Source of the DNA: Oscillospiraceae bacterium CM
GTDB lineage: Bacteria; Bacillota; Clostridia; Oscillospirales; Oscillospiraceae
NCBI GenBank assembly: GCA_022870705.1
Contig: CP072107.1
Span: 1,548,501 to 1,612,500 of the forward strand
DNA: 64,000 bases
Direction: 5' to 3'
In this document: piece after piece, positions 10,698 through 15,915 of the stretch
How the letters are laid out: each line of letters opens with the position of its first letter
How positions within the stretch are numbered: the stretch's first letter is position 1
Notes under the pieces: generated by a model
What the model was told of the DNA's origin: nothing
Seen by the model: the letters and a program-made list of their open reading frames with translations, nothing else
Database searches by the model: none
Made by a program: the position numbers and the translations under genes

Positions 10698-11213
10698 TTA
10701 CAGTAGGATGACGACTGCGAAGAGACCGGCGGCGACACCGAGAAAAGCGCGAACTTTTGAATTTCTGTCGCGCTCTTCCTCCGCTTGTTTGACGTATGCC
10801 TCAAGCCGTCGCTGGGCGTACTGAATGGCGCTGCGCTGCTCGGCAATATCATACCGCCCAAGGCACAGGCCGAGCTCCGTTAAGACGAGTGCTTCCGACG
10901 GGGTAAGCAAAAGTTCCGGTGTTACCAAAACGGCCTGGCGCCACAGGGCGGAAAACGGCGTTGTGCCGAGCTGCCCGATTTGGTCCGCCGCGTTTTGAAA
11001 AAAAAGCGCGGCAGGGGCGGTGCACTCCGCGGCAAGCTGTGTCAGCAGCGCTGGAATTGGCGTGAGATGGTCGCAAATTTCGCTTTTCATAACGCCGAGC
11101 GCACCCGTCAGCGCGCGGAGGCTCTTAACGCGGTTTCGGAGCTTTATGACGCCCAATATGCCCCAGGCGGCCGTTCCCAGCATGATAAGCACAGCTCCCA
11201 TAAATCGAATCAT
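10698..11213 (-). CDS. spoIIIAB: stage III sporulation protein AB
   Basis: A 171-residue protein with a transmembrane helix at each end (residues about 4-20 and 153-170) and a soluble helical middle, the GspF-like arrangement typical of SpoIIIAB. It presumably pairs with the SpoIIIAA ATPase. The conserved [20 protein letters not shown] is at about 38-57. It overlaps the end of spoIIIAA by 4 nt. Confidence 0.92.
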
Positions 11214-12142
11214 ACGCCCGCCTCCAAGTCACGGACGGTATACGTCCACGTCCCGTTTTCCTTGCCGATCAGCACGGCTTTTTCGAAAATCGCGTCGCTC
11301 AGTAGCCGCTTATAAATTGGCCGCTTTACAAGGTCATTGAGGCTCTCGGCATGCGCCGTTGCAAGAAGCCGTACGCCGCAGCCCGCCGCGCTTTCAATGG
11401 CCTCAATGTCAGCCGGGGCCGTGATCTCGTCGAGCGCGATGACCTGCGGGTTCATGGCCCGCAGCAGCATCATAACGCCCTCGGCCTTTGGGCAGGCGTC
11501 GAGAACGTCCGTCAGCATCCCGACGTCCATCTGGGGCGCGCCGTCGCAAACGGCGGCAACTTCGCTGCGCTCGTCAGCCAGCGCTACGCGCAGCGGCTTC
11601 ATGCCAAGCGCCTCGTCACCCGACGAGATCAGCCGCACCAAATCGCGCAGGAGCGTCGTTTTCCCGCGGCCCGGCGGCGAGAGGATGAGCGTTGACCGCA
11701 GCATACCGCCATCCGTCAGCTGCGGCGCAACGCTTCGAGCGATGCCGACGACGGCGCGCGCGATGCGAACGGACGCCGACGTCAGCGCTTTAAACCCAGC
11801 CGCCTCACCGCTCTGGACGATTGCTGTGCCGCACAGGCCGATTCTGTAACCTCCGCGCACCGTGATATACCCGGATCGGACGCTCTCACGCGCAGCGTAG
11901 GCCGACGCGCCGGTCGCGATGTCCAAAAGCCCGTCAAGGTCACGCTTTGTGACCGGCGCACCGCCGAGCGACACTTCACCCGACGGCAGCAGCACGGATA
12001 GCGGCTGGCCGGTGCGCAGCCGCAGCTCCTCGGCGACAGCCCTGTCTTCCCGCACCACCCGGCGCGCGGCCTCCCGCAGCATCATCGGCAGGAGCAGAAC
12101 AGCACCGTCATACCGCGCCACCTGCGCCGTTAAGTCGGCCAT
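11210..12142 (-). CDS. spoIIIAA: stage III sporulation protein AA, secretion-type ATPase
   Basis: A 310-residue ATPase related to type II/IV secretion ATPases that powers or assembles the SpoIIIA channel during forespore engulfment. The Walker A is [14 protein letters not shown] near residues 155-168. A Walker B-like [18 protein letters not shown] follows near 234-251, and [13 protein letters not shown] near 258-270. It is the first gene of the operon. The product is cytoplasmic in the mother cell. Confidence 0.95.
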
Positions 12143-12359: not shown

Positions 12360-13148
12360 TTATTTGCTTTCCCGCCGCTGAAGGCTGAGCCTGTCGGCGA
12401 TCATGGCGATAAATTCGCTGTTTGTGGGCTTGCCTTTGATGTTGGACACCGTGTAGCCGAAGAATTTTTGGAGCGTTTCGAGGTCTCCCCTGTCCCAAGC
12501 AACCTCGATGGCGTGACGGATGGCGCGCTCGACGCGGCTGGGCGTTGTGGCAAAGCGCTTGGCAACGGTCGGATACAAAACTTTTGTGACGGCATTGATA
12601 ACGTCCATATCATTGATCGTTAAGATAATGGCCTCGCGCAGATACTGATAACCCTTAATGTGCGCCGGAACGCCGATTTCATGAATGATTTCCGTGACGA
12701 GGCTCTCCAGGCTCTGCTCCGGCCGTGTTGGCTTGACGGCGGTGCTGACAGGCGCGAGCGCAGCGCGTGATTTACCGGACACCATGCGGATGCGTGATAA
12801 AAGCGCGGGGATGTCACACGGCTTCTGCAAAAAATAGGATGCGCCAAGAGCTGACGCCTCCGATAGCGTGTGTTCGCTGGAAAAACCCGAAACAATGATG
12901 ACGGAAGGCTTGTCCCCGTCGGGCACGTCCGAGAGTTTTTCGAGGACGGATAACCCGTCAAGCCCCGATAAAATGAGGTCCGTTACCAGAACATCCGGCT
13001 TCTCCGACAGCACGAGGGAATATGCCGTGAGTCCGTCTCCGGTGCAGCCGACAACCTCAAAATCTCCTTCATTCATCAAGATCTCTGAGAACAGAAGTCT
13101 GTAATCTTCTCCGGTATCGGCAATCAGAACGCGCGTTTTTGTTTCCAT
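12360..13148 (-). CDS. spo0A: sporulation master regulator Spo0A
   Basis: Response regulator that commits the cell to sporulation. It is 262 residues from the ATG at 13148, which has GGAGGAGC five bases upstream. The receiver domain (about 4-122) has the phosphoacceptor aspartate in [14 protein letters not shown] and the switch lysine in [12 protein letters not shown]. The C-terminal DNA-binding domain (about 150-262) has [18 protein letters not shown], the recognition region [24 protein letters not shown] and [15 protein letters not shown]. It binds 0A boxes (TGTCGAA). Candidate boxes occur near the next gene and near abrB. Confidence 0.97.
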
Positions 13149-13269
13149 TGTAAGCTCCTCCGTCACTGATAATTCATCACGGCTTTGCAATTTTTCTGCT
13201 TATCTGCGGCCTTGTCTAACAATCTAGCACATTCAGACCTCGTTTGCAAGCACTATTTGGAAAATAATT

Positions 13270-13530
13270 CTAATTATTTCCATTTCCTCTACCGTCAAGC
13301 AAATAATCATAGGAAACGTTGAAAATTGCCGCAATAGCACAGAGTTCAAGATCAGAAACAAATCGTTTGTTTGTTTCAATGCGTGTGATAACATTTTTGT
13401 CCATGTCCACGCCGCGCAATTGCAGCTGGTTTGCCAAAGCCCGCTGTGACAGTCCTTTCCGCTCTCTGAGCTCCTTCAGACGTAATGCGATCAGATTCTT
13501 CTCACCGTTTTCACCCCAGGGTTTCGGCAT
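13270..13530 (-). CDS. small XRE-family helix-turn-helix regulator
   Basis: An 86-residue single-domain Cro/CI-type regulator. The HTH is LRLKELRERKGLSQRALANQ followed by DKNVITRIETNKRFVSDLEL and a third helical part LCAIAAIFNVSYDYLLDG. I choose the ATG at 13530 (MPKPWGENG) because GGGAGG lies six bases upstream; the longer frame has no ribosome site. Its promoter region contains two 0A-box-like sites. It lies next to spo0A and could be a sporulation-phase regulator, but the target is unknown. Confidence 0.88.
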   Translation of the reverse strand: MPKPWGENGEKNLIALRLKELRERKGLSQRALANQLQLRGVDMDKNVITRIETNKRFVSDLELCAIAAIFNVSYDYLLDGRGNGNN

Positions 13531-13617
13531 GAATCGCCCTCCCAAATTATGAATTATTTTCCTTCTGTTCAAAATTATGATATATTTCATAAAAATCGGT
13601 TGTAAAAATGATACATT

Positions 13618-13634
13618 TGTCGCAATCTGTCGAA
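13618..13634 (-). promoter_or_regulatory. tandem Spo0A-box-like sites upstream of the XRE gene
   Basis: TGTCGCA (13618-13624) and the perfect box TGTCGAA (13628-13634) are in the same orientation with 3 bp between them, the spacing seen in tandem 0A boxes. On the minus strand they lie upstream of a TTTACA...TATCAT promoter (18-bp spacer) for the XRE gene. Confidence 0.55.
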
Positions 13635-13648
13635 TTTTAGCCAAAAGT

Positions 13649-14605
13649 TTAACGATTTTCTGCCCATTTTGCGGCAGCTTCAAGACTGGCGGCCATCAAG
13701 CGGCCGTTATCTTGATACATCTCTGAAAACTGCGAAAGGGCCAGCGGTGAAACGCCGATGCCGGCTTCAATGGTAAAGCCGGGGCGGTTAAACGCCGATA
13801 CGAACCAGTCTTTATAACCGGCAAACCCGGCGTTATACGGCGTGTCTTCCACCGCATAACCGCTCACATCTTTTAATTTTTGCGCAAGCTGCCATGCATT
13901 TTTTGGCGCAGAATCGAGATACTTCCAATAGATCACTTTTCCCTGCGTGTGGTAAGACAGCGTGAGGGCGAAGTCATTTTGCCGCGTCAAATCGTAAAGG
14001 GCGCAGCTTTCAGGGGCCGAAAGCGGCTGCGACCCGACATAGTCCCGCGGTGCGGGGCTTGTGATGCCACGTTCAAATTTTATGTCGCGTGCCTTTTCCC
14101 AACCGGCGGGATACTGGAGGTTTAGATCAACGCCTTCTATATTTGCCTTCCAACCAGCTGGAAACGGCACATCCGGAAACTTTTCCGCTATCGCGGCGGC
14201 TTTTTCAAGCGGCGCCCCGGTCAGTGCGCCCGTTACGAGATCGACCCCGTCGGGGTTAACCATTGGCACAACATATAACGTTGTTTTACTGTACAGCAAA
14301 CGAGCGCCACAGTCAAACAACGATGCGTTTTTTTCGACGGCGTCGGCATAGTTTTCAACAAATTTTAAAACGAGCGGCGCTGTAATCCATTCGTTGGCGT
14401 GGTGCGCGGCGTTGAAAAAGACAGCCTGTTCGCCGATACCGACCGTTATGAGCAGCAGTGGTCGTCCGAGCACGCTTGACCCAATGGTACGAACTTTGAC
14501 AATTGGATAACGGGCGGCAATGGCTCGCACCGTTTCTTCAAAAAGATGCGCTGTCATGGGGATGTTTGCAGGTGTCAGCTGAACGTCCTTTGCGTGGTCA
14601 TTCAT
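13649..14605 (-). CDS. M14-family zinc carboxypeptidase (gamma-D-glutamyl-diamino acid peptidase-like)
   Basis: A 318-residue metallopeptidase. Zinc ligands are H and E in FNAAHHANEWIT (about 64-75) and H in LSYHTQGKVIYW (about 218-229). VNPDGVDL, EGVDLNLQYP and the probable catalytic glutamate in PGFTIEAGIG complete the M14 pattern. Relatives cleave gamma-D-Glu-meso-diaminopimelate bonds in peptidoglycan, often in spores, which fits the neighbours spo0A and spoIVB; the substrate here is inferred. No signal peptide is evident. The ATG at 14605 has GGAG eight bases upstream. Confidence 0.88.
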   Translation of the reverse strand: MNDHAKDVQLTPANIPMTAHLFEETVRAIAARYPIVKVRTIGSSVLGRPLLLITVGIGEQAVFFNAAHHANEWITAPLVLKFVENYADAVEKNASLFDCGARLLYSKTTLYVVPMVNPDGVDLVTGALTGAPLEKAAAIAEKFPDVPFPAGWKANIEGVDLNLQYPAGWEKARDIKFERGITSPAPRDYVGSQPLSAPESCALYDLTRQNDFALTLSYHTQGKVIYWKYLDSAPKNAWQLAQKLKDVSGYAVEDTPYNAGFAGYKDWFVSAFNRPGFTIEAGIGVSPLALSQFSEMYQDNGRLMAASLEAAAKWAENR

Positions 14606-14826
14606 ATACATGACTCCTATCTGTTTAACAATCGCTTATTTTGAATCAAATTATGACATTTCATGTGAATTCATACATGGCTTGTTGAAAAAAAAGCGTG
14701 AGGGCTTTCAATCAAAAACCTACCAAGACAAAACAGATAGATATTGTCACGAACGGCGATCTCTTTTTTGTGACGCAGCGGACATATTAAAATTGTCGCT
14801 TCAAATTATTTCAGGAGGGAAATTTA
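14606..14826. other. AT-rich divergent intergenic region
   Basis: Between the divergent M14 peptidase and spoIVB genes. I see no convincing gene; it should hold both promoters. The only clear elements are the leader peptide frame described next and its ribosome site CAGGAGGG. Confidence 0.5.
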
Positions 14827-14871: not shown

Positions 14872-15915
14872 ATGGGGATTACTAAATTATATAAAAAGCT
14901 GTTTTCCGGCTTCTTGCTTTTGACGGTTTTGGCGTTTTCCTGTCCCGGAACGCTGGCGGCCGGGAAAGCACTCATCCCAATGGGAAATGCAGTCGGCATT
15001 TCACTGTCGTCGGACGGTGTTATGGTTGTCGGCGTTCCCGAGACGATGCCGGACGGCGTGACAGCGTCACCGGCACGCGACGCGGGTGTGGCCGTCGGGG
15101 ATATTATCACGCAAATTGGTTCTCAGCACGTCTCGTCCAACGACGACCTGAAGGCGGCAATTAAAATGCTGGACGGATCGCCTGTTGCAATGACGGTTCT
15201 GCGCGGCGGCAAAACGATGTCGCTGAAAATGACACCGCATAAAAGTAATGATGGCGCGTGCGAGCTTGGCTTGTGGCTGCGCGATGGTATCGCCGGTATT
15301 GGCACACTGACGTTCTATGACCCTGAAACGCACCTCTTCGGCGCGCTTGGGCACGCCGTCAACGATGCGGAGACGGGTGTTCTCATCCCGCTGCGTACAG
15401 GGCAGATCATGCGTTCGTCCGTGACGGACGTTATCTTGGGCAAAGCCGGTATGCCCGGTCAGCTGCACGGGACATTTAATACGGAAAGCGTTCTCGGGAC
15501 GCTGATGAAAAATTCAACAAGCGGCATTTTCGGAACGCTGGACAATGAAGACCTGATTGCTGGAAAAACGGCCGTTCCGATTGCCAAAACATCAGAAATC
15601 AAGACGGGTCCAGCCAAGATCCTCTCGAACGTCTCCGGAACTGACGTCGTATCCTATGATGTCGAGATCACACGGGTGTACACCGGCACCGAGGCAGTCG
15701 GCCGCACCATGATGATCACCGTGACCGACAAGCGCCTGATCGAGAAGACGGGCGGTATCGTTCAGGGGATGAGCGGCAGCCCCATCCTGCAGGACGGCAA
15801 GCTCATCGGCGCCGTGACGCATGTGCTCGTCAACGACCCGACGAAAGGCTATGGTATTGATATCGAAAACATGCTGAGCACCGCAAAAAGCGCCGCCCCG
15901 TCAAAAGCGGCATAA
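14872..15915 (+). CDS. spoIVB: SpoIVB serine peptidase (S55)
   Basis: Forespore protease that crosses into the intermembrane space and triggers sigma-K activation by cutting SpoIVFA. It is 347 residues: signal/anchor segment at about 8-30, a PDZ domain (ASPARDAGVAVGDIITQIGS, about 65-84), and the S55 peptidase domain with the probable catalytic histidine in FGALGHAVNDAETG and serine in GIVQGMSGSPILQDGKLIGAV. AAGGAAGG precedes the ATG. In Bacillus spoIVB lies directly before spo0A; here two minus-strand genes lie between them and spo0A is on the opposite strand. Confidence 0.95.
   Translation: MGITKLYKKLFSGFLLLTVLAFSCPGTLAAGKALIPMGNAVGISLSSDGVMVVGVPETMPDGVTASPARDAGVAVGDIITQIGSQHVSSNDDLKAAIKMLDGSPVAMTVLRGGKTMSLKMTPHKSNDGACELGLWLRDGIAGIGTLTFYDPETHLFGALGHAVNDAETGVLIPLRTGQIMRSSVTDVILGKAGMPGQLHGTFNTESVLGTLMKNSTSGIFGTLDNEDLIAGKTAVPIAKTSEIKTGPAKILSNVSGTDVVSYDVEITRVYTGTEAVGRTMMITVTDKRLIEKTGGIVQGMSGSPILQDGKLIGAVTHVLVNDPTKGYGIDIENMLSTAKSAAPSKAA

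Follow-up and report, generated by a model that had tools for sequence, protein, structure and literature searches.

The abrB promoter of Bacillus subtilis carries tandem 0A boxes between its operator and the start codon, and the fold of AbrB differs from that of XRE regulators. SinR has a C-terminal SinI-binding and oligomerisation domain beside its HTH, and in Clostridioides difficile the sinRI locus is not known to lie beside spo0A. To our knowledge, the mapping of direct Spo0A targets is sparse in organisms other than Bacillus and C. difficile. The TGTCGAA core of the 0A box and its contacts with Spo0A are described in the accessible portion of one study (PMC3485338), and the accessible portion of another reports that Spo0A represses the sinRI locus in C. 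difficile (PMC7643835).

Here we analyze a 64-kb stretch of the genome of Oscillospiraceae bacterium CM (hereinafter the window), in which a pair of 0A-like boxes precedes a small XRE-type gene that lies upstream of spo0A. The locus shares with abrB the tandem TGTCGAA-type boxes and, in a group of box-bearing homologues, the position of these boxes as well; in the window itself, however, the boxes lie upstream of the candidate promoter. The parallel with C. difficile sinRI is that of an HTH regulator locus in Clostridia under direct Spo0A control, which for the window is a prediction; moreover, the R1 box of C. difficile sinR, TTCTACA (TGTAGAA), is the variant that occupies the place of box 1 in the congener G002. 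In contrast, the sinRI boxes given in the accessible portion of that study are located 274 and 230 bp upstream and do not form a 3-bp tandem, and the operon includes a second gene, sinI (PMC7643835).

The XRE gene and its surroundings

The XRE gene lies on the minus strand, running from an ATG at 13530 to a stop codon whose last base is 13270; it encodes 86 amino acids and has GGGAGGG upstream of the ATG. Its stop codon is separated by 121 bp from the start of spo0A on the same strand (12360-13148, minus), which encodes a protein with receiver and Spo0A_C domains (TIGR02875, 299.8 bits; PF08769, 2.7e-46; PF00072, 1.9e-17), that is, a Spo0A with its DNA-binding domain is encoded in this genome. 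Downstream of spo0A lies spoIIIAA (11210-12142, minus; TIGR02858, 285.9 bits), and upstream of the XRE gene, collinear with it, lies a gene for an M14 zinc carboxypeptidase (13649-14611, minus; PF00246, 1.5e-30) that is syntenic in the congeners G001, G002, G004 and G005. The spoIVB gene (14872-15915, plus; TIGR02860, 348 bits) occupies the strand opposite to spo0A, with the M14 and XRE genes between the two; in 11 of 29 loci from sister genera spoIVB is found just upstream of spo0A on the same strand.

The preliminary description had reported TGTCGCA and TGTCGAA as direct repeats, with 3 bp between them, upstream of the small XRE gene, and the sequence confirms this. Box 1, TGTCGCA (13618-13624, plus), matches the consensus in 6 of 7 positions, departing from it at position 6; box 2, TGTCGAA (13628-13634, plus), is perfect. 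With the spacer ATC (13625-13627) they form a 10-bp repeat that accounts for 13 of 14 bases, located 88-104 bp upstream of the XRE gene and pointing away from it. The same description placed the boxes upstream of a plausible -35 element, and a candidate one is in place: a motif scan detected TTTACA-N18-TATCAT (13577-13606, minus; 10/12 matches), 11 bp from the boxes. As a promoter, however, this site does not exceed shuffle expectation, given that the scan of the region yielded 2 sites versus 1.4 in shuffled sequence; we consider it a plausible XRE promoter.

The 86-aa protein is a single-domain XRE regulator of the Cro/CI type (HTH_3 clan), with Pfam matches to HTH_19 (5e-10, 39.6 bits; gathering score 30.2) and HTH_3 (5.8e-9, 36.3 bits; gathering score 23). 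An AlphaFold2 model (mean pLDDT 83.2) consists of five helices ending at residue 79. Although Foldseek with this model gave no match at E <= 0.001, it points to a fold likeness with phage-type Cro/CI repressors and the DNA-binding domain of SinR (P22 c2, E 1.2e-3, TMt 0.86; SinR 3zkc, E 7.5e-3, TMt 0.87), with further matches to a 434 variant and ImmR. Sequence searches of solved structures produced no relative at E <= 0.01. With respect to a possible mobile-element origin, PHROG repressor profiles match the protein, and the NCBIfam model of phage RstR gives a match that falls short of the cut-off (29.5 of 80 bits). The analogy with SinR/SinI and AbrB drawn in the preliminary description holds as a possible way of working but not as family membership: the Pfam search matched HTH families only, with no AbrB-type DNA-binding domain; the 86-aa protein has no SinR-type C-terminal domain; and no sinI-like gene adjoins the XRE gene, which is flanked by the M14 peptidase gene and spo0A. 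Among the papers listed in literature searches, none deals with this XRE family, and none was found on Spo0A in Papillibacter.

A putative operator shared by the XRE family, and boxes in a subset of it

A contig scan for XRE homologues yielded 179 matching loci, of which the best 80 were analyzed (60-81% identity, mostly Lachnospiraceae by title; three are congeners with the same neighborhood). Upstream of 79 of these 80 homologues there is a left operator arm close to GTCTCACTTTTACAACCG (at least 14/18), and upstream of 67 an inverted right arm, GTGCAAAAAGTGAGACAA (at least 13/18), the arms being 37 bp apart in 40 of the 67. Both words were picked by eye from the same loci, and random 180-bp pieces of these loci, which may overlap a true site, reach the left- and right-arm scores in 12 and 9 of 400 cases, respectively. 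The motif DMDKNVITRIET over the third helix is invariant in 21 aligned XRE sequences. We infer that the split palindrome is probably the operator of the XRE protein itself. In the window, the left arm GTATCATTTTTACAACCG (13597-13614, minus; 16/18 to the family consensus, and the one perfect match of the pattern in the genome) lies 3 bp from box 1 and overlaps the candidate -35; the right arm is not recognizable there, the best score of 11/18 falling inside the box region itself.

A large XRE regulon was considered, and the strict operator revealed none; relaxing the search to one mismatch produced 30 matches in ten genomes versus 25 for the backwards control. Perfect arm matches number one or two per genome, with none in G002, and those of the window's genome, G001 and G004 are at the XRE gene; the window's genome also has a one-mismatch match (control 0), which falls within a reading frame. 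A second perfect copy of the arm in G062 (L144, near 1501) comes just after a promoter-like TTGATT-N17-TACAAT in a 3-kb locus that has no XRE-profile gene, and is possibly a second target of the XRE protein. Clustering of the open reading frames around the 80 homologues revealed no gene except XRE in more than 17 loci.

Tandem 0A pairs of at least 13/14 occur within 170 bp upstream of 13 of the 80 homologues (13.5 kb of sequence upstream of XRE genes), compared with one such pair in the other 680.7 kb (L100, about 100 bp beyond the XRE gene) and none at any of 12 other spacings. The boxes of these 13 homologues are downstream of the right operator arm, between the operator and the start codon. 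In the tree of the family, the 13, two homologues with weaker boxes (L050 and L106) and three boxless rows make up an 18-row group (SH-aLRT 93) that stands apart from the group of the window; with few columns, many forks of this tree are unresolved and the box-bearing group is itself poorly resolved, and on it boxes of at least 13/14 require no fewer than 3 changes. When the search was extended to the class, 13 of 391 genomes matched, that of the window among them, and in the upstream regions read from the other 12 no pair exceeded 10/14.

The four box-bearing hosts that were checked all have Spo0A_C proteins, with strong matches in G065, G066 and G069 and a weak best match in G067 (3.7e-21; 26% identity to the Spo0A of the window). 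In four genomes that carry this XRE family, G061, G066, G069 and G065, the best Spo0A homologues (L272, L276, L277 and L279) are proteins of 189-211 aa with a Spo0A_C domain and no receiver domain according to Pfam; in L272 the receiver-less homologue adjoins spoIVB. Among five near full-length Lachnospiraceae spo0A genes, heptamers of at least 6/7 are present upstream in G062, G063 and G068 and absent in G060 and G064.

The tandem element at spo0A and other genes of the family

Within the bacterial family of the window, 61 genomes were searched for Spo0A_C, 55 had a match, and we examined the best 30 loci, of which 29 belong to other genera. A perfect TGTCGAA is present within 300 bp upstream of spo0A in 21 of these 29 genera, as against 1.38 in shuffles and 0-1 for each of five control words. 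Tandem pairs with 3-bp spacing reach at least 12/14 in 12 of the 29 and at least 13/14 in 5 (shuffles 0.12 and 0.0), and these five best pairs start 148-175 bp before the spo0A ATG. Fourteen other spacings gave 0-5 pairs at the lower threshold and 0 at the higher one; the 5 belong to the 13-bp spacing, which is one more helical turn than 3 bp.

Independently of the gene, a search of 150 family genomes with the pattern only returned 60 perfect tandem pairs in 44 genomes, compared with 2 for the backwards control. Among 30 sites that were fetched, a gene start could be assigned for 12, and many of the other 18 are inside reading frames; the 12 comprise five HATPase histidine kinase genes, three spo0A genes (named from translation), three DUF6514 genes and one gene for a small HTH protein of a different type. 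The five histidine kinase-type (HATPase_c) genes (L217, L224, L228, L232 and L234), whose starts have perfect tandem boxes nearby, possibly encode sporulation kinases controlled by Spo0A.

The 30 best DUF6514 loci, which include that of the window's genome and were read upstream of the matched domain, have a perfect box in 22 cases (five control words, 0-3) and a tandem of at least 12/14 at 3 bp in 17, versus 0-3 at 11 other spacings. The DUF6514 gene is a candidate conserved Spo0A target; a literature search found no paper naming the domain. In the window's genome, the DUF6514 gene (L123, 1136-1483; G000:C1, near 1056653) has a 13/14 tandem and a nearby TGTCGCA.

Given the spo0A and DUF6514 promoters, it is credible that the 3-bp tandem is a mark of Spo0A in the window's bacterial family. 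Its own genome has the tandem upstream of the DUF6514 and XRE genes and lacks it in the 300 bp upstream of spo0A. Elsewhere the mark appears noisier: a second survey, via the Lachnospiraceae-like G361 and with a slightly looser pattern, found 46 sites in 33 of 200 genomes versus 27 for the control, a modest excess. In the family of G361, tandem boxes precede an Hpt phosphotransfer gene (by Pfam; L268, 1682-2086) and an HPr-like gene (by eye; L253, 1624-1866). The 60 tandem-site loci fetched from the two wider surveys contain no close member of the XRE family; one weak match to the XRE profile (8.1e-5) is more than 600 bp from its site.

Conservation within the genus

The genus is represented by six genomes, and five of them, that of the window included, encode Spo0A_C; G003 has neither a Spo0A_C nor an XRE match. 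The order M14-XRE-spo0A is shared by G000 (the window's genome), G001, G002 and G004, and G005 has M14-spo0A with no XRE gene between them. With respect to the boxes, which the preliminary description expected to be conserved in relatives if functional, the aligned place holds 12/14 in G002 (TGTAGAA TTA TGTCAAA) and 11/14 in G004 (TGTATAA TTA TGTCAAA), and in G001 it holds AGTCGAA and TGTAGAA 6 bp apart, the former also pairing with TGTCTAA on its other side to give a shifted 12/14 at 3 bp. Thus, conservation of the boxes is partial: pairs persist in three congeners, but all are weaker than those of the window, and G005 lacks the gene. The weaker boxes have C4 or G5 altered. In the accessible portion of the study cited above, single changes at C4 or G5 cost the C. 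difficile Spo0A DNA-binding domain about 10-fold in affinity, C4A (giving TGTAGAA) doing so at abrB (PMC3485338).

The possibility that XRE was inserted at an empty site retained by G005 is weakened by two observations. The M14-spo0A gap of G005 resembles the DNA just upstream of the G000 XRE start (none of 300 shuffles as good in local alignment), its similarity to G001, G002 and G004 being weak (191, 82 and 12 of 300 shuffles as good); and the Spo0A of G005 is the closer to that of the window, with 86% identity compared with 78% for G002 and 79% for G004. Loss of XRE in G005 appears as likely as insertion elsewhere, or likelier. No boxes kept in the G005 gap were found.

Proposed regulation of the XRE gene and alternative explanations

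We propose, with a probability of roughly 0.6, that the XRE gene is an autorepressor under direct Spo0A~P control. The claim of the preliminary description that it is a direct Spo0A target is thus retained as a prediction from sequence; it draws on the rarity of the strict pair in the window and the genome, on the recurrence of the motif in front of spo0A and DUF6514 genes within the family, and on similar boxes upstream of XRE relatives in another lineage. Under this proposal, the XRE protein would bind the left arm that overlaps the candidate -35 and repress its own gene, and Spo0A~P would bind both boxes, which lie around -48 to -64 relative to the candidate start, and either activate the XRE promoter or displace the XRE protein. 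Since the arm, the candidate -35 and the boxes are packed into 13597-13634, the XRE protein and Spo0A~P could hardly ignore each other. Both the direction and the role of this control are predicted: box placement near -48 to -64 in the window favors activation or anti-repression, and boxes near the start codon in the box-bearing group of homologues suggest repression there. Action early in sporulation, as suggested in the preliminary description, would be a hypothetical role.

Because the strict operator is found once in the genome, the effect is probably confined to the locus: the XRE protein would set its own level and, by transcription continuing across the 121 bp between the genes, part of that of spo0A. 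This single match, the short gap and the lack of a terminator-like site in it, as judged by a scan of the region, make XRE itself and read-through into spo0A the likely outputs. Given that spo0A retains a conserved promoter-like site of its own (TTGCAA-N17-TAGATT, 13221-13249, minus; recognized by eye in an alignment of four congeners, and in G005), the XRE module would tune spo0A rather than gate it.

The same predicted read-through transcript opens an alternative that we regard as unlikely, namely that the boxes serve autoregulation of spo0A and that any control of XRE is incidental. The frequency of perfect boxes upstream of spo0A in sister genera would fit such a role, and in the window, as in G005, no 0A box of 6/7 with the CG core is present in the 300 bp upstream of spo0A; nor does a terminator-like site separate the two genes. 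However, the boxes of the window are oriented opposite to most of those upstream of spo0A (coding-strand form in 19 of 29 loci, the other form in 5), spo0A has its own promoter-like site, and G005, which has no XRE gene, kept no such boxes in front of spo0A.

Chance, in the sense of a random pair picked out of 64 kb, strikes us as distinctly improbable. Single TGTCGAA words are at chance level in the window (9 versus 9.3 expected), the loose pattern TGNCGNA-N3-TGNCGNA shows no clear enrichment over the genome as a whole (12 versus 8 for the backwards control), and the weaker boxes of the congeners point the same way. Nevertheless, no other pair in the window reaches 12/14 with 3 bp between the boxes, and when up to one mismatch is tolerated the 2.19-Mb genome holds two sites, this pair and one upstream of the DUF6514 gene. 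As the backwards control yielded 3 sites in the same genome, the number of sites is no proof by itself; the places are what count. Such pairs recur upstream of the same XRE family, and dinucleotide shuffles of 81 upstream regions, that of the window included (30 each), reached 13/14 in 0 of 2430. A strict search of ten genomes, picked partly for boxes already seen there, returned 20 sites, 6 of them upstream of an XRE-family gene (G065, G066 twice, G067, G069 and G000); over these ten genomes the backwards control was commoner than the strict tandem pattern.

That the repeats belong to the operator of the XRE protein itself and are not Spo0A sites is very improbable, for despite their position 3 bp from the conserved arm and the best right-arm score within them, the right arm of 67 of 80 homologues has a different sequence, in 64 of 81 XRE-family upstream regions no TGTCGAA pair reaches 12/14, and the same repeats are found at spo0A and DUF6514 promoters in a family in which no XRE of the window's type was found near spo0A in 28 of 29 sister-genus loci.

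Beyond direct control of the XRE gene by Spo0A~P, we tentatively suggest, as a doubtful extension, that a compact self-repressing XRE gene, with a split-palindrome operator common to its family, joined the Spo0A regulon on two or more occasions. In one setting, comprising Acetatifactor, Parablautia and, with weaker boxes, Anaerocolumna, the boxes would have come to lie between the operator and the start codon, and the best Spo0A homologue of some of the hosts is without a receiver domain. In the other, the genus of the window, XRE between its 0A boxes and spo0A would constitute a two-gene feedback module, the adjoining XRE and Spo0A sites replacing the boxes that front spo0A in sister genera.

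With respect to significance, the 3-bp tandem rule offers a low-background prediction of Spo0A targets in the window's family (spo0A, DUF6514 and histidine kinase genes). If the proposed control is real, XRE would act as a simple feedback element where uncultured or little-studied anaerobes switch to sporulation, and would extend modestly what is known of how spore formation is wired.

Additional observations

The window's genome encodes a second Spo0A_C protein (L117, 1486-2331; G000:C1:570122) with a receiver-like N-terminus, as judged by eye, and a sensor-kinase-like gene adjoins it. An AT-rich inverted repeat (13257-13279) spans the XRE stop codon, with similar repeats seen by eye in G001 and G005. 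Finally, a locus of another genus (G026; L014/L190) has three small HTH genes beside spo0A, two of which match the XRE profile.
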